From positions 1-16,464 of the forward strand of contig CAMYJJ010000039.1 of assembly GCA_947258735.1 (NCBI GenBank): a DNA stretch of 16,464 bases, given 5' to 3'. Below are positions 6,711 to 13,432 of this stretch, in pieces (positions within the stretch are counted from its first letter, which is position 1; every line of letters begins with the position of its first letter). This DNA is from Thermodesulfovibrionia bacterium (GTDB lineage: Bacteria; Nitrospirota; Thermodesulfovibrionia; UBA6902). The notes beneath the pieces are model-generated. The model searched no databases, was not told the DNA's origin, and saw only the letters and a program-made list of their open reading frames with translations. The position numbers and the translations under genes were made by a program.

Positions 6711-8054
6711 ATGAAATTAAGCGCATTACTGGATTTAGAGCTGATTGACAGTGAAGATATCAGGAAGCTTCTTCTGGAAGAAGGGTTTATCGTCAATGAT
6801 CTATTAGATAAAGATACCCTGCTCGAAGAAATATCCAGGGGAGTAGTAAATGTTGTATTCCTTAAATGCTGTCCGGTGATTACATCAAGCGATGATATCG
6901 GTTCAACCATAAAAAAATGCAAGGAGCTGGACCCGCGTGTAGAAATAATCTGTCTTGGATTACACAAGGATGAAGAAATTGCGGTAGAGGCAATAAAATA
7001 TGGTGCTACTGCCTGTATACATACCCCGCTTGATGAATCCAATATACGAGAGACCATGCGTGAGATTAAAGATCACGCCCTCTTCCGCATGGAAACGTAC
7101 AACATAGAAAAATCCCTTTTTGAGAAACTCATCTTTACTGAGATCGTCAGCAAACACCCCGTTATGCTTGATATTTTTACCCTTTTAAAACGCGTGGCCC
7201 CTTACTACAGGACAATGCTGATTTCCGGAGAAACAGGTACGGGAAAGGAAGTCCTGGCCAAACGTGTTCATAAACTTGGCCCGGCACCTGAAGAACCTTT
7301 TATTGCATGCAACTGCAGTGGATTTGTTGAGACGCTTTTAGAAAGTGAACTCTTTGGACATGTCAAAGGGGCCTTTACCGGTGCTGTCTCCGATAAGAAG
7401 GGCCTGTTTGAGGCCGCGGGCAAGGGAACACTGTTTCTTGATGAAATTGGAGACATGCCTCTGGGTTTTCAGGCACATTTATTAAGGGTCCTGCAGGATG
7501 GAGAGATAAGGCCCGTTGGCAGTACGAGAACGATGAAAGCAGCATGCAGGGTCATAGCTGCGTCTAATGTCAATCTTGAGGAACAGGTAAAAAAAGGGCT
7601 GTTTCGGGAAGACCTGTATTTCCGGCTCGCTGTCATTACGATAGATTTGCCCACCTTACGGGAGAGAAAAGAGGACATACGACTGTTATGCTATTACTTT
7701 CTTAATAAATTCATAAAGAAAATGAAAAAGAACATAACTGGCATATCTATACCTGCCCAGCGTTATCTTTCCTCCTATGACTGGCCCGGAAATGTCAGGG
7801 AGCTTGAGAATGTTATTGAGAGAGCGATGCTCGTGACAACGACCAGTTTTATCAGGCCCCAGGACCTGCCCTCGAATGTCAGAGAACTAAAAGCATCTGC
7901 TGCTCAGAGCCTTGCTATTGATGATGTACTGAAAACCCATATCCAGCGTGTTCTTGCCACAACCGGTGGGAACAAAACAAGGGCCGCTTCCTCTTTAGGA
8001 ATCAGCAGAAGGTCTTTGCAGAGAAAAATGCAGAAATACAGCATTGAGGGATGA
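6711..8054 (+). CDS. NtrC-family sigma-54 activator with a degenerate receiver domain
   Basis: 447 aa. Three domains: an atypical receiver (about 1-120), an AAA+ sigma-54 activation domain (about 142-375) and a Fis-type DNA-binding helix-turn-helix (about 408-443, '[20 protein letters not shown]'). The AAA+ part is intact: Walker A 'GETGTGKE' (173-180), the sigma-54 contact loop GAFTGA (220-225), Walker B 'LFLDEIGD' (241-248) and arginine fingers in 'FREDLYFRL'. The receiver is not: the phospho-acceptor Asp position reads K52 in 'VVFLKCCP', the Ser/Thr position is G83, and the conserved Lys before Pro is T105. Control by a histidine kinase is therefore unlikely, and no kinase gene is nearby. 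It sits just upstream of the pilus locus, whose first gene has a sigma-54 element, so it is the obvious candidate activator (inference). No Shine-Dalgarno is evident before ATG 6711. Confidence 0.93.
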
Positions 8055-8134
8055 TCTTTTTACAGGCAGGATATGTAAGCAGTCTCTTTTGAGACAGCAC
8101 AAAGAATAATCTTTACCAAATACCCCCCTGTCAG

Positions 8135-8162
8135 TTGACAATAATTCAAAATAGCTTATAAT
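8135..8162 (+). promoter_or_regulatory. Consensus sigma-70 promoter upstream of the pilus locus
   Basis: TTGACA (8135-8140), 16 nt, TATAAT (8157-8162): both hexamers are perfect. Transcription would start near 8169, leaving a leader of about 224 nt before the first gene at 8393. The dyad at 8161-8197 begins in the last two bases of the -10, as expected for a repressor operator. Confidence 0.6.
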
Positions 8163-8197
8163 GGGCTATATTGACCATTACAGTAATATCAGCCCAT
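8161..8197. promoter_or_regulatory. Dyad overlapping the -10 and start site (operator or 5' stem-loop)
   Basis: ATGGGCTATATT (8161-8172) pairs with AATATCAGCCCAT (8185-8197) over 12 bp with a single bulged C, loop 12 nt. No T-run follows, so it is not an intrinsic terminator. Its place on the -10 and +1 of a consensus promoter suggests an operator; as RNA it would lie at the very 5' end of the transcript. Confidence 0.5.
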
Positions 8198-8357
8198 AAT
8201 CATTCTCAATAGAGAAATGAAAAATAATCTTTAAATTTCAAACTGTTATCAAGAGAAAAGACAAGAATACGATTCAAATACAAAATTTACATGCCAAAAG
8301 CGCCCGCTTCAAAGAGTGTGACACATTAAATTACTTTTAAATCAATGAGTTACATGC

Positions 8358-8373
8358 TGGCATTGAATTAGCA
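8358..8373 (+). promoter_or_regulatory. Sigma-54 (RpoN) -24/-12 promoter element
   Basis: TGGCAT-TGAAT-TAGCA matches TGGCAC-N5-TTGCA at 9 of 11 defined positions with the exact spacing of 10 nt between GG (8359-8360) and GC (8371-8372). A start near 8384 would leave only about 9 nt before the ATG at 8393, which is short for a ribosome site. A sigma-54 activator gene ends 300 nt upstream. Confidence 0.5.
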
Positions 8374-8392
8374 ATACATACAGACGGTTAAC

Positions 8393-8857
8393 ATGAGAAA
8401 ATATCTTTTGATCAGCATATCAATCATACTAACGTTTCTGCTTACCTCAACATGTGCTTTTGCAGACACTGTCTCATCAAACCTTCTTGTCAGCGCAAGA
8501 GTAGTACCTGTGGTCCAGTATAATGTCCTTCATCAGGAAAACACGATAACGGTTACTGCGGAAGATATTAACAGGGGTTACATCGATGTTGAGAATGCAG
8601 TTATCTATAGAATAAAGACTAATTCCAGAAATGGCCATCTCCTTGTTTATTCAAGAGACACCAGCCTGTTTAAGGAGATCTTTATATTGGGTAATCATTA
8701 TGTTCAAACCATGTCAGGGTCCTGGGGTGAAATACCCATGCCTTATCAGGGAAATCATTATTTCACCAAAGAGCTTGGTTTCAGGTTTCAGGTTACAGAG
8801 AATATGAAACCCGGAACATACCCCTGGCCTCTGGCTATCACACTCAGTTCACTGTAG
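8393..8857 (+). CDS. Small secreted, cysteine-free protein of the pilus locus, possibly pilin-like
   Basis: 154 aa, family not recognised with confidence. A clear signal peptide (hydrophobic 4-20, likely cleavage CAFA|DT after residue 24) sends it to the periplasm or beyond. The mature 130 residues have no cysteine and read as alternating beta strands: an N-terminal hydrophobic strand 'NLLVSARVVPVVQYNVL', then 'TITVTAEDINRGYIDV', and a last segment 'KPGTYPWPLAITLSSL' that resembles the final strand of fimbrial subunits ('PGTY...V.VTL'). This suggests an immunoglobulin-like fold and a role as an accessory or initiating subunit, or a regulator, of the adjacent SCPU pilus. That is inference from shape and position only. 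It is separated from the pilin by 467 nt with its own promoter, so it may be expressed separately. Confidence 0.8.
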   Translation: MRKYLLISISIILTFLLTSTCAFADTVSSNLLVSARVVPVVQYNVLHQENTITVTAEDINRGYIDVENAVIYRIKTNSRNGHLLVYSRDTSLFKEIFILGNHYVQTMSGSWGEIPMPYQGNHYFTKELGFRFQVTENMKPGTYPWPLAITLSSL

Positions 8858-9073
8858 TCTGTATGATTCATGCTTCAATGGAGCAGACTCTGCAATCTGT
8901 TATGTTTCACAATAATATCTCCATTAAATCAGGCACATAAACATCACTTTTTTTCGAAATATTACACTGGCATCATGTCTTAGAGTAAAGCCAAACCATT
9001 TGTAATATATATCTTTTTCTCATTACCTGATATATATAGGGCAATACCTTAAATATTAAATAGGTAATCCCCC

Positions 9074-9100
9074 TAAAGTTTCTCAGGAAAATGCCGATAG
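9074..9100 (+). promoter_or_regulatory. Sigma-28 (FliA) flagellar-type promoter for the SCPU pilin
   Basis: TAAAGTTT (9074-9081), exactly 11 nt, GCCGATAG (9093-9100). This matches the FliA consensus TAAAGTTT-N11-GCCGATAA at 15 of 16 positions with ideal spacing. The start would be near 9107, with a leader of about 218 nt before the pilin ATG at 9325. Confidence 0.72.
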
Positions 9101-9106
9101 AATATC

Positions 9107-9324
9107 GTAACGCGGGCTCAGGAAAGCGCTGCTTTAAAAGCGGATGATTTCCAGCTAAGGACAGCTTGCAGTATTAAAGTTGCATGTGTTCCTTTCTGGA
9201 ACAGGGATATATGTCACAAGAAACGTGATATGAAAAGGGGGTGATCAAATAGGAGAGTAATGACAAAGAATATGAAGGTTTGAGCTCGTACAATGTTAAA
9301 GAATAAAAAATCAGGAGGGTTTAA
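9107..9324 (+). other. Long structured leader of the pilin mRNA with tandem ribosome-site-like sequences
   Basis: From the predicted sigma-28 start to the pilin ATG. Hairpins: CTGCTT-taa-AAGCGG (9128-9142, one G-U pair), TGTTCC-tttct-GGAACA (9187-9203) and ATGTCAC-aagaaac-GTGATAT (about 9211-9231). AAGGGGGTGATC (9235-9246) matches 11 of 12 bases of the full anti-Shine-Dalgarno complement but has no start codon at normal distance. A 7-codon frame MTKNMKV (9260-9283) has AGGAG 4 nt upstream. The pilin itself has AGGAGGG 5 nt before its ATG. No riboswitch class was recognised. Confidence 0.4.
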
Positions 9325-9810
9325 ATGAAGAAACTAATAGTAACTGTAATGACCATAGCGTTGTTCATGTCTGCCGGAAGTGCTATGGCAGCATCAACAT
9401 TTACCACATTTGATATAACAGCGAATGTTGCGGCTGCATGTAATATCAACAGTATGCAGAATATGAACTTTGGAGCCTATGACCCGACAGGCGGTGATGT
9501 AAATGCTACAGCTGACCTGCAGTTCAACTGTTCAAAAAATACCGCATATGATATCACAATCGAAGGACCAAGTCAGCTTACAACAAGGCAAATGACAGGC
9601 GGGACATTTGCAGAGAACCTGGTGTATGAGCTCTACTACGACGGGGCACACACAACAGCTTGGGCAGATGTTATTGGAAACATACTTGGACAGGGTACAA
9701 CACCCGATAATACATTGCAGACAATGACGGTGTACGGTCAGATTGCGGGCGGGCAGGACGTCTCTGTTGACAGTTATACTCAGACGCTTGAAATAACCGT
9801 TAACTTTTAA
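9325..9810 (+). CDS. Spore coat U (SCPU)-domain pilin, likely major pilus subunit
   Basis: 161 aa. Signal peptide with cleavage SAMA|AS after residue 22. The mature part has the SCPU pattern: a donor-strand-like N-terminus 'STFTTFDITANVAAAC', the first cysteine C39, 'MNFGAYDPTGGDVNATADLQFNC' with C69 as disulfide partner, and a C-terminal strand 'YTQTLEITVNF' ending in the aromatic residue typical of usher-exported pilins. In Csu-type pili such subunits are folded by the chaperone and polymerise at the usher by donor-strand exchange. AGGAGGG lies 5 nt before ATG 9325. The sigma-28 promoter lies upstream and a strong terminator directly downstream, fitting a subunit needed in excess over the assembly machinery. 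Confidence 0.92.
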   Translation: MKKLIVTVMTIALFMSAGSAMAASTFTTFDITANVAAACNINSMQNMNFGAYDPTGGDVNATADLQFNCSKNTAYDITIEGPSQLTTRQMTGGTFAENLVYELYYDGAHTTAWADVIGNILGQGTTPDNTLQTMTVYGQIAGGQDVSVDSYTQTLEITVNF

Positions 9811-9826
9811 GGCATGGCTGGACCAG

Positions 9827-9857
9827 TATAAAAAGGGGGCCTGGCCCCCTTTTTATA
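9827..9857. terminator. Strong Rho-independent terminator (bidirectional) after the pilin gene
   Basis: TATAAAAAGGGGGC (9827-9840), loop CTG, GCCCCCTTTTTATA (9844-9857): a perfect 14-bp stem with six G-C pairs next to the loop and a T5 stretch on the right side. It sits 16 nt after the pilin stop and before the chaperone gene. Partial read-through would give much pilin and little chaperone and usher. Confidence 0.9.
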
Positions 9858-9901
9858 TTGAATTTCTTTAGAGAGGGGAATTGCGGGGGCAGGGAATACT
9901 C

Positions 9902-10672
9902 ATGGAGGGAAGTATATATAGAATGCAAATAAAACCTTGTCATAGCTTACCCGTCTTTCATCTCATTGCGCTTTTCTTCTGTGTGCTTTCATCAGATGTA
10001 TCTGCTGCAAATTTCACGGTCAATCCGATCAGGATTTTTTTTGACGGCGCTCAGAAGACCAACGTTCTCAGCATTACAAACACATCTGATGAGCCGGTGT
10101 CGTTAGAGCTAAAGGCAGTTGCATGGGGACATGACAATACATACACTCCGACAAAAGACATCATATTTTTCCCGAAGATGCTTACGATAAATAAAGGGGA
10201 AGAAAAGATCATCCGGATAGGACACAGAATATCGGTTGAACAGCTGGAAAAGACATACCGGCTATTTATAAAAGAGATACCTGATATAAGCCCTGAAGGA
10301 CGTACCGAGCTGAAAATGGTAATGAACCTCGGGGTCCCGATATTTATCATGCCTTCAGAACAAATATCCGAAGGTGAAATAGAAAAGACGGATCTATCGA
10401 ATGGGGAATTGACTGTTTCTTTAAAGAACACAGGTAATGTTCACTTTGTAATACAGTCGATAGCAGTATCGGGCATCGATGACACACTGAAAGAAATATT
10501 CAGTGCCAATATGGCCGGATGGTATCTCCTCGCAGGTAGTGCAAGGGACTATACGTTTGAGATACCGGAGGAGAGTTGCCTTAACATTAAAAACCTTCAG
10601 GTAAATGTTGAAACTGATAAGCCCTCAATGGAAAAGAAATTTGGCGTTATCAAAGAGATGTGTACTCCCTAG
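9902..10672 (+). CDS. PapD-like periplasmic pilus chaperone
   Basis: About 257 aa from ATG 9902. A signal peptide ends near 'SDVSAA|NF', followed by two immunoglobulin-like domains. The N-terminal domain shows the chaperone pattern 'FTVNPIRIFFD' with the Arg used to bind subunit C-termini, 'VLSITNTSDEPVSLELKAVAW', then 'FFPKMLTINKGEEKIIRIGHR' and 'TYRLFIKEIP' with the second anchoring Lys. The C-terminal domain begins near 'GELTVSLKNTGNVHF'. It would bind unfolded SCPU subunits in the periplasm and hand them to the usher. Start choice: ATG 9902 has AGGGA 6 nt upstream; TTG 9881 (preceded by GAGAGGGG) and ATG 9923 (GGAGGG, 13 nt away) are alternatives. The usher frame overlaps its 3' end, so the two are coupled. 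Confidence 0.92.
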   Translation: MEGSIYRMQIKPCHSLPVFHLIALFFCVLSSDVSAANFTVNPIRIFFDGAQKTNVLSITNTSDEPVSLELKAVAWGHDNTYTPTKDIIFFPKMLTINKGEEKIIRIGHRISVEQLEKTYRLFIKEIPDISPEGRTELKMVMNLGVPIFIMPSEQISEGEIEKTDLSNGELTVSLKNTGNVHFVIQSIAVSGIDDTLKEIFSANMAGWYLLAGSARDYTFEIPEESCLNIKNLQVNVETDKPSMEKKFGVIKEMCTP

Positions 10673-12974
10673 CACCTTTTTTTTATTGATCACAGCCTCA
10701 CTTATGTTCTTTTCTGACGCGGCAGATGCACAGGAACTCATTGTCCTGAAGCTGATGTTAAATGGGGAAGATAAAGGAGAGATGTTCATGGTCCGGTCCG
10801 GTGACAGCGACATATGGCTGAACAGGGCAGACCTGAATAACACGGATCTTTTAAAGGATATAGGAGGAGATATCCATTTTGATGGAGAAGTATTTGTCCC
10901 TCTCAGTTCAATCCCGGAACTCACCTTTCAGATAAACGATAGCGAGGCGTCGCTGGAGGTAACTGCACCTTCCCATCTATTCAGAAAACAGTATATAGAT
11001 GCAGCAGTCAAACGGCCTCAACGACTCAGGGCAGCTCAGGATATGTCCGCATTTTTAAACTATGCCGGCGGATACAGCCGCTTTGACAGTTTCGAGTACA
11101 TACATGTATCAGGTGAACTTGGCATGGGAATAGGCGACTATCTGGGCAGATCGACTTTTTCCTATACAAAGACAGAAGATGAAAATAATGCCGTGAGGCT
11201 CATTTCTGATCTTATAATGAGTGATAGAAAAAACCTGAGGTCATTTGTTGTCGGTGATATTAATGCATCATCCGGTATTTTTGGTGTGACTTCACTGATC
11301 GGCGGGATAGGCGTTTCCAGAAACTTTTCTCTTTCTCCCTATTTTATGAAATATCCCTCACTGGACCTGAGCGGCAGCATCGAGAGGCCGTCTCAATTAG
11401 AAGTGTATCTGAATGACATCCTTGCCCGTAGAGAACAGTTATCACCCGGAGCGTTTGAGTTTAATGATGTACCTGCTACAGGGGGATCGGGTACTGCACG
11501 GATAGTGATACACGACATATACGGGAGAGAGCGAACCATATCAACACCTTACTACTCCTCAGACCGTCTCCTGAAAAAAGGAGTGCATGAATACAGCTAC
11601 GCCGCTGGTTTTGAGCGGGAAAACTTCGGCACAAAAAACCTTGACTACGGTGCTCCCGCTCTCCTCGCCTTTCATAATTATGGATTATCTCAATATCTTA
11701 AGGTCGGCTATTCTGCTGAGGCGACGAACAACCTGATCAATGTCGGGGTGTCGGGGTTAGTCCTAATGCCCAAGGCAGGAATAGTCGATGCTTCATTGGC
11801 CTCAAGCAGCCACAATGGTAAAACAGGTCTGAGCGGGTCAATGGGCTATGCTTATTTGTCGAGACATTTTAATGCACGCATCTCCATGCATCTGACATCC
11901 AGAGAATACGCCAATTTTTTACTGGACCCGTCAGTTGACAGAAACAGGTTGCAGTTCAACAGTGCCATGGGGTTTGGATGGGACAAAGCGGGGTATATCA
12001 CAGGAGCATATACGTATTCCGATGCTTATATTGCCGGGAGCACATCCATGTTTGACATCTCGTATAACAGGGCAATTACAAAAGATATATCCTTCTTCAT
12101 GACCGCAGGGCATATAAAGAATATAACTACAGAACATAAAATGATGCTGGGACTGCATATGCTTCTTGGTAAAAAACTCTCAGGGGCGGTCACTTACCGC
12201 AGCAGCAAAGGTGACCGTATGACAGAGGCCCGGATACAGAAAAGTGTACCCACAGGAACAGGGTTCGGGTATGGCGCCAGTGTAGAACATACCGGTGACC
12301 GGAATAATGTTGAGGGCACGGTCCGGTATCAGAACAGATACGGGATGTACGGCATGAACATAATGGAGAGAGAAGGAGGCAGCGGTTATCATCTGTCATA
12401 TGCAGGTGGCATGGGATATATCGGAAGGTCCGTGTTTTTCAGCAGGCCGCTTACCGACAGTTTTGCAAAGGTCAAGGTTGGAGATCTCGAAGGAGTACGC
12501 GTGTATTCATACAACAATGAGATCGGCAGGACAGACAGCAATGGTGAAGTCATCATACCGAACCTCCAGTCTTTTCATGAAAACAGGATCGATATCGAAG
12601 CAGAAGATATCCCGATTGACTACTCAATTCCGGAATTGACGCAGCGCCTGACACCTTCTTTCAGAAGCGGTTCATCTGTTTCATTTGATATAACCAAAAT
12701 ACAGGCAGTCACAGGCTCTGTTGCCATGCTGGTGAACGGAGAAACAGTCCCGGTTTCATACGCAAGACTGTCCCTGCAGGGGAAAGATACGACCATAGAG
12801 GGAATCATAGGATCAGACGGTGCGTTTTATCTGGAAAACATTCCTGCGGGAACATATCCTGTTAACATCCTGTTAAACGGGAATGTATGCACATTCAGCA
12901 TGGTTGTGCCGGACAGCGCAGAGATGATCATAGACCTAGGAACAAATGTATGCGGTTCAGGTAAACAGAAATGA
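10605..12974 (+). CDS. Outer-membrane usher of the chaperone-usher pilus (CsuD/FimD-like)
   Basis: 789 aa from ATG 10605. After a hydrophobic signal (about residues 20-40, cleavage near 'SDAADA|QE') come the usher N-terminal domain ('LIVLKLMLNGEDKGEMF', about 45-125), a long beta-barrel, a plug-type insert ('QLEVYLNDILARREQLSPGAFEFNDVPATGG') and C-terminal domains ('VRVYSYNNEIGRTDSNGEVIIPNL' to the C-terminal cysteine). It forms the pore through which pilin-chaperone complexes are assembled and secreted. The length is at the short end for ushers, as in the Csu clade. ATG 10605 overlaps the chaperone by 68 nt and gives a long signal-peptide n-region. TTG 10641 would give a more usual one (MALSKRCVLPSTFFLL), so the exact start is open. 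The stop overlaps the next gene in ATGA. Confidence 0.93.
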   Translation: MLKLISPQWKRNLALSKRCVLPSTFFLLITASLMFFSDAADAQELIVLKLMLNGEDKGEMFMVRSGDSDIWLNRADLNNTDLLKDIGGDIHFDGEVFVPLSSIPELTFQINDSEASLEVTAPSHLFRKQYIDAAVKRPQRLRAAQDMSAFLNYAGGYSRFDSFEYIHVSGELGMGIGDYLGRSTFSYTKTEDENNAVRLISDLIMSDRKNLRSFVVGDINASSGIFGVTSLIGGIGVSRNFSLSPYFMKYPSLDLSGSIERPSQLEVYLNDILARREQLSPGAFEFNDVPATGGSGTARIVIHDIYGRERTISTPYYSSDRLLKKGVHEYSYAAGFERENFGTKNLDYGAPALLAFHNYGLSQYLKVGYSAEATNNLINVGVSGLVLMPKAGIVDASLASSSHNGKTGLSGSMGYAYLSRHFNARISMHLTSREYANFLLDPSVDRNRLQFNSAMGFGWDKAGYITGAYTYSDAYIAGSTSMFDISYNRAITKDISFFMTAGHIKNITTEHKMMLGLHMLLGKKLSGAVTYRSSKGDRMTEARIQKSVPTGTGFGYGASVEHTGDRNNVEGTVRYQNRYGMYGMNIMEREGGSGYHLSYAGGMGYIGRSVFFSRPLTDSFAKVKVGDLEGVRVYSYNNEIGRTDSNGEVIIPNLQSFHENRIDIEAEDIPIDYSIPELTQRLTPSFRSGSSVSFDITKIQAVTGSVAMLVNGETVPVSYARLSLQGKDTTIEGIIGSDGAFYLENIPAGTYPVNILLNGNVCTFSMVVPDSAEMIIDLGTNVCGSGKQK

Positions 12975-13432
12975 AAATGAACGTTATGTACAGTACCATG
13001 GCCCTTACGGTGTTAATATTAACAAGCGTTACATATGCTGCATGTACTGTTTCTGCAACCCCCCTCTCCTTTGGAAGCTATGATGTCTTTTCTGCGGCTC
13101 CACTTGATTCCACAGGCACAATCACCGTTTCCTGTGATGAGCGAAGGGCGCCGCAAGTACTCATATCTATCGGCCAAAGCACGAATTCAGGCGGATTTGA
13201 TCCGCGGGCAATGAAACATGCCACCGGGGGAGAACTCCTTATGTATAACCTGTACACGAACAATGGAAGATCCAGAATATGGGGAGACGGATCAGGAAAT
13301 ACGAGCACAGTTACGAGAAAAGTCAGGAGAAACAGACCATTAAACCGAACTGTCCATGGCAGGGTGCCGCCGCTGCAGGATGTCGAAGCGGGCGCCTATC
13401 ATGAAACCCTTACCGTTACCATCCTGTGGTAA
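12971..13432 (+). CDS. SCPU-domain minor subunit, candidate tip subunit
   Basis: 153 aa. Signal peptide with cleavage near 'VTYA|AC' (residue 23). The SCPU core follows at once: C25 in 'CTVSATPLSFGSYDVFS', C55 in 'GTITVSC', 'GELLMYNLYTN', 'IWGDGSGNT' and a final strand 'GAYHETLTVTILW' with a C-terminal aromatic. The first cysteine is only 1-2 residues from the cleavage site, against about 16 in the pilin at 9325. There is thus no room for an N-terminal donor strand, so it could accept but not donate a strand and would sit at the pilus tip. This is a structural inference. ATG 12971 overlaps the usher stop by 4 nt (ATGA), so it is translationally coupled. Residues about 117-132 are unusually basic ('RKVRRNRPLNR'). 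Confidence 0.9.
   Translation: MKMNVMYSTMALTVLILTSVTYAACTVSATPLSFGSYDVFSAAPLDSTGTITVSCDERRAPQVLISIGQSTNSGGFDPRAMKHATGGELLMYNLYTNNGRSRIWGDGSGNTSTVTRKVRRNRPLNRTVHGRVPPLQDVEAGAYHETLTVTILW

Follow-up and report, generated by a model that had tools for sequence, protein, structure and literature searches.

Can the flagellar sigma factor also drive a chaperone-usher pilus? In the usual view, chaperone-usher fimbriae and flagella are opposites, the former serving adhesion and the latter swimming. Sigma-28 control of such a pilus would be unusual, because cells are normally expected to produce fibres of this kind when they are not producing flagella, and vice versa. The inverse relation between fimbriae and flagella is the subject of PMC6687942 and the E. 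coli sigma-28 binding sites that of PMC5493296, both as excerpted. In the window, by which we mean the whole 16,464-nt stretch of Nitrospirota DNA analysed here, a sequence resembling a sigma-28 (FliA) promoter lies ahead of a gene annotated as a chaperone-usher pilin. Here we examine this site, the genes on both sides of it and their counterparts in related genomes, and ask which reading of the site the evidence favours.

A sigma-28-type site upstream of a pilus operon

The letters at positions 9074-9100 of the forward strand, TAAAGTTTCTCAGGAAAATGCCGATAG, agree at 15 of 16 specified bases, with an 11-nt spacer, with the FliA consensus, which we take to be TAAAGTTT-N11-GCCGATAA as in E. coli. 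Sequences within about two mismatches of this consensus were counted as sigma-28 promoters, and the window site, with one mismatch, is among them (Table 1). Both strands of the 16,464 bases contained no second match at up to three mismatches; at this level 0.20 matches per window are expected by chance, and 33 of 200 window shuffles yielded at least one. In dinucleotide-preserving shuffles of the gap that holds the site (n = 1,500), no match was obtained at up to one mismatch and 0.07% matched at two. The gap spans 467 nt, from the end of an ORF at 8857 to the pilin ATG at 9325, and the -10 element ends 224 nt before that ATG, so that a transcript starting about 7 nt past the -10 would carry a leader of about 215 nt. 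Thus, the FliA-like motif that the first-pass annotation had placed before the pilin proved to be intergenic, correctly oriented and the sole match of its quality in the window.

Table 1 Features of the pilus locus in the window
Feature	Position	Strand	Evidence or remark
NtrC-type sigma-54 activator	6711..8054	+	PF00158; GAFTGA by eye; weak receiver (Response_reg below cut-off)
Sigma-54 (-24/-12) type site TGGCATTGAATTAGCA, putative	8358..8373	+	19 nt before the 154-aa ORF
Secreted protein of 154 aa; candidate divergent pilus subunit	8393..8857	+	Profile match to pilins
Sigma-28 (FliA) type promoter, predicted	9074..9100	+	-35 TAAAGTTT 9074-9081; -10 GCCGATAG 9093-9100
Leader element AAGGGGGTGATC	9235..9246	+	78 nt before the pilin ATG
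SCPU pilin, 161 aa	9325..9810	+	PF05229; CupE1 and CsuA/B chain matches (profile of 12 orthologues)
PapD-type chaperone	9881..10672	+	PF00345
Outer membrane usher	10605..12974	+	PF00577; FimD chain matches
Second SCPU subunit, single domain, 153 aa	12971..13432	+	PF05229; CupE1 and CsuE chain matches

The four genes downstream bring an SCPU subunit, a PapD-type chaperone and an usher together in one operon, the combination by which we recognise archaic chaperone-usher systems, and 9325-13432 is an archaic chaperone-usher pilus operon. The single pilin sequence as query returned chance matches only, and the profile of 12 pilins was needed to reach CupE1 and CsuA/B; the matches of the pilin and the second subunit to 8cio, 5d6h, 7zl4 and 6fjy are weak but significant. 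CsuE is a two-domain tip adhesin. The last subunit here consists of one SCPU domain of 153 aa, compared with 312 aa for the CsuE chain, and no separate long tip adhesin was found in the operon. The usher also scored 19.1 and 16.2 bits with Shiga toxin B-subunit models whose cut-offs are 204.3 and 201.2 bits, hits that were dismissed as noise.

Within the leader, the element AAGGGGGTGATC, presumably nearly the full complement of the 16S rRNA 3′ end, recurs with up to two mismatches in six of the 11 pilin leaders compared below, 61-97 nt before the ATG, and in five of nine flagellin leaders, counts that carry no shuffle control. Folding of the window's pilin leader barely beats that of shuffles (z -1.21, with 21 of 200 shuffles as good). 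Rfam models run over the window gave nothing at gathering level; in the gap the only hits, all at chance level, were to families of eukaryotes or Enterobacteria.

Conservation of the motif at orthologous pilin loci

Among 5.8 billion proteins, the pilin has, besides itself, seven homologues at 60-73% identity and two at 35-37%, one of them labelled Nitrospirota. As a lone query the pilin found no relatives; in a scan of genome contigs an alignment of eight homologues found locus L001, which comes from a Nitrospirae groundwater MAG and served as the seed for whole-genome searches. Some match to the pilin profile occurs in 27 of 395 genomes of the phylum of L001. In its order, 13 of 47 genomes match and ten carry an orthologous pilin (at least 189 bits), the scores of six of these ten being raised because the search model contained their pilins. 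The highest score below this level, 83 bits, also comes from one of the ten, and distant SCPU matches elsewhere in the order (best scores 80.9 bits in G352, 60.8 in G179 and 69.8 in G398) were excluded from the orthologues.

The gene order activator, small protein, pilin, chaperone, usher, second subunit is kept in most of the loci. At the locus, G404 has no activator and G210 neither activator nor small protein; the ORF list for the G412 stretch includes no activator, and in G177 the contig breaks off inside the pilin. Both flanking genes, bioA-like and purL-like as named by eye, are common to the window, G404 and G334, and ushers within the order share 42-72% identity with that of the window.

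The first-pass annotation had named conservation in related genomes as a check on the promoter, and conservation was found. Across 11 loci, comprising the window and the ten orthologous pilin loci, the motif is present with up to three mismatches in eight and with up to two in seven, at distances from the ATG that vary between 42 and 371 nt, in DNA that has otherwise diverged (Table 2). Mean pairwise identity over the eight sites is 0.94 in the -35 and 0.72 in the -10, compared with 0.43 in the spacer and 0.31 in the 35-nt flanks. Shuffles of the individual gaps reach up to two mismatches at a rate of at most 0.0007 and up to three at 0.0027-0.0100. A matrix built from 16 non-pilin sites of these genomes placed the pilin site at the top of its whole locus in eight of the 11 cases, with the exception of G415, G300 and G334 (in the window the pilin site scored 26.9 and the next 6.7); this ranking is not fully independent, because the 16 sites were chosen by their likeness to the E. 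coli consensus.

Table 2 Best sigma-28-type match before the pilin at 11 loci
Locus	Mismatches	-10 to ATG (nt)
Window	1	224
G412	0	255
G401	1	171
G378	1	53
G404	2	192
G177	2	371
G210	2	42
G001	3	289
G415	5	
G300	6	
G334	7	

The G001 site has three mismatches; matches at up to this level occur in that genome in chance numbers (61 against 69), and 0.0100 of the shuffles of the site's own gap do as well. G415 and G334 have both FliA and flagellin and are missing a good pilin motif, which counts against the FliA reading; the G334 gap contains a degenerate TTAAGTTC-N12-GCCGAATG, as read by eye. In the distant SCPU genes examined in G352 and G179, the best upstream match has six and seven mismatches, respectively, and the G352 gene, lying inside a row of such genes, tests little. 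Pilin loci examined outside the order had no motif at up to three mismatches, a weak test in which many of the genes are trailing operon genes. G025, which has the next best pilin outside the order, has no FliA over the family cut-off.

FliA and sigma-28-like sites in the relatives

FliA scores over the family cut-off in 31 of the 47 genomes of the order. The presence of flagellar genes, which the first-pass annotation had set as a further check, was assessed in the relatives: FliA and flagellin occur together in nine of the ten genomes with an orthologous pilin, and the tenth, G300, is without both and without the motif. We infer that the window's own genome carries fliA as well; no flagellar genes were recognised in the window itself. 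Across the order, the pilin is found in 9 of 31 FliA-positive genomes and in 1 of 16 others, a difference that is not decisive.

All nine FliA-positive pilin genomes have sites with 0-2 mismatches before flagellin, and their genome-wide matches at up to two mismatches number 119, the reversed pattern giving 44. In some relatives, sigma-28-like sites are also found before FlgM (G001, three mismatches), FlgN, CheV-like and chemoreceptor genes; several further sites fall inside ORFs or before unrelated genes. In G300, where no FliA over the cut-off, no flagellin and no pilin motif were found, genome-wide matches at up to two mismatches show no excess (2 against 4 reversed); this is one genome and may be incomplete. 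Its pilin gap contains a sigma-54-like sequence, TGGCATTTAACTTGCA, 89 nt before the pilin with one mismatch, scored without a shuffle control (L012/L120), and no other pilin gap has such a site at up to two mismatches. This hints at a replacement of the promoter after loss of the flagellum.

Other genes in these genomes follow similar sites. Genes for PilM, an MshEN-domain protein and a GspH-like prepilin are preceded by sigma-28-like sites with one or two mismatches (L157 in G404; L039 and L042 in G001), as if type IV pilus genes might also belong to the sigma-28 regulon. Sites with 0-1 mismatch precede a small, Cys-rich protein (about 103 aa; CWE-KKCGREPGG) in L038 (G001), L129 (G378), and L154 and L166 (G412); the L129 copy belongs to no Pfam family, and the protein is a candidate new FliA target. 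Sites of the same quality also precede a set of similar proteins in L138 (G210), L144 (G334) and L168 (G401), one scanned member of which has a VanY D-Ala-D-Ala carboxypeptidase domain.

The flagellin leaders of the nine genomes (L065, L066, L067, L068, L073 and L176-L179; alignment A4) are conserved and apparently structured, with a GGTCAGGAAAGG element, several hairpins and one loop bearing AAGGA or ACGGA, which we take to be a CsrA-like motif. Changes on both sides were seen in 8 of 26 predicted pairs, a count without a covariation control, and cmscan of these leaders at E values up to 0.1 returned only three plant-type microRNA hits at one locus.

A sigma-54-like site before the upstream gene

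The 154-aa protein encoded just upstream of the gap has no Pfam or NCBIfam family. Its profile matches the pilin profile with 95.7% probability, part of the match being the signal peptide, and it is possibly a divergent pilus subunit. An AlphaFold model of the protein had a mean pLDDT of 45.2 and was discarded as a query for fold searches. In nine of ten loci examined, G412 being the exception, the small-protein ORF is preceded at 3-22 nt by a -24/-12 site with 1-3 mismatches, and shuffles equal the score of this site in 0 to 2%. The GG/GC at -24/-12, the fixed spacing, the presence of rpoN (in ten of ten relatives) and the mostly adjoining activator gene mark it as a putative sigma-54 promoter. 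In the window, the gap that holds the sigma-54-like site also contains, 3′ of the activator, a perfect sigma-70 consensus, TTGACA-16-TATAAT (12 of 12 bases), at 8135-8162.

Polar flagella are built under a hierarchy of sigma-54 and then sigma-28. With a sigma-54 site and an adjoining activator before the upstream gene, the pilus locus therefore resembles this order, and has an apparent two-tier, flagellum-like arrangement in which the sigma-54-like site would serve the upstream gene and the sigma-28-like site the pilus genes.

Alternative explanations

The pilin operon might instead be transcribed mainly by read-through, from the sigma-54 site at 8358-8373 or from a housekeeping promoter, with the sigma-28 site as a minor or conditional second promoter. 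Such read-through is possible because there is no terminator-like site between the small gene and the pilin (none was found across 8040-9340), and both the perfect sigma-70 consensus and the recurrence of the sigma-54-like site in nine of ten loci fit it, as does the survival of the operon in G415 and G334 without a good sigma-28 motif. We nevertheless regard it as unlikely: G210 keeps the sigma-28 site with neither activator nor small protein at the locus, G404 has no activator there, and the site is retained in eight of 11 loci amid diverged DNA.

That the motif is read by another sigma-70 family factor rather than by FliA is very improbable, even though the genomes encode further proteins of this family with sub-cut-off matches to the FliA model. 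The same motif precedes flagellin in all nine FliA-positive relatives and, in some, FlgM, FlgN, CheV and chemoreceptor genes; G300, which has such factors and no FliA over the cut-off, shows neither an excess of the motif nor a pilin motif. A chance match in AT-rich intergenic DNA could account for hits at the level of three mismatches, which turned up in 33 of 200 window shuffles and are at chance level genome-wide in G001. As an account of the window site, with its one mismatch, chance is hardly credible when seven of 11 orthologous gaps have matches at up to two mismatches, a level that shuffles reach at a rate of no more than 0.0007 per gap, and the motif is conserved across diverged orthologues.

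Discussion

We consider it likely, on the strength of the sequence comparisons, that the archaic chaperone-usher pilus operon at 9325-13432 is transcribed from a working sigma-28 (FliA) promoter at 9074-9100. FlgM is the anti-sigma factor that holds FliA until FlgM itself is exported by the hook-basal body. In the mechanism that we propose, completion of the hook-basal body would lead to export of FlgM and free FliA, which would then transcribe the pilus operon of this clade along with the genes for flagellin and chemotaxis; the subunit-like gene just upstream would be driven by a sigma-54 site of its own, next to which the activator gene lies. Transcription from the site, gating by FlgM and the timing would follow from established knowledge of FliA and FlgM, the latter shown in one relative (G001). 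From the known FlgM checkpoint, we infer that production of the pilus would be coupled to flagellar completion.

The closest precedent comes from Bdellovibrio bacteriovorus and B. exovorus, whose operon for Tad (Flp, type IVb) pili is described as FliA-driven in the excerpt of PMC5430801, on the basis of lacZ reporters assayed in E. coli deleted for fliA. There, as predicted here, a non-flagellar pilus operon has a promoter for the flagellar sigma factor; unlike that type IV machine, the present system is an archaic chaperone-usher pilus, in Nitrospirota, and is known from sequence alone. The same excerpt mentions indirect control of E. coli fimbriae by FliA through c-di-GMP, a case in which FliA and a fimbria are likewise linked, whereas here a conserved site lies directly before the pilin. 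The first-pass annotation had described FliA control of the pilin as contrary to the usual picture. This holds where FliA would control a chaperone-usher pilus directly, a case of which no report was recognised among the matches listed (titles and abstract openings, with few subscription journals covered), but it does not hold more widely, since the FliA-driven Tad pilus of Bdellovibrio and the indirect control of E. coli fimbriae were already published (PMC5430801, as excerpted).

In its components, the pilus is like Csu of Acinetobacter and CupE of Pseudomonas, with SCPU subunits, a PapD chaperone and an usher, and with matches to CsuA/B, CsuE and CupE1. It differs from both in the FliA-type promoter, the adjoining sigma-54 activator gene and the single-domain last subunit, with no separate long tip adhesin in the operon. 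The promoter shares its -35, -10 and spacer with the flagellin promoters of the relatives and in this is like the FliA class-III promoters of flagellin and chemotaxis genes; unlike these, its target would be a chaperone-usher pilus. As in the polar-flagella hierarchy, a sigma-54 activator and a sigma-54-like site go with one gene and a sigma-28-like site with the filament genes, but here the two sites stand side by side in a pilus locus. Campylobacter uses RpoN for middle genes and FliA for late genes (PMC11187230, as excerpted).

We put forward a wider proposal tentatively, at just short of an even chance: that in one order of Nitrospirota the flagellar regulon took in an archaic chaperone-usher pilus, which became a class-III product under two-tier sigma-54/sigma-28 control, that the fibre would be made by motile cells after hook completion, that a flagellum-less lineage rewired the operon to sigma-54, and that the sigma-28 regulon may include type IV pilus genes. 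If the flagellar sigma factor does transcribe such a pilus in this clade, the fibre would serve motile cells, for example in stopping on a surface, and sigma-28 regulons would be more open than enteric models suggest.
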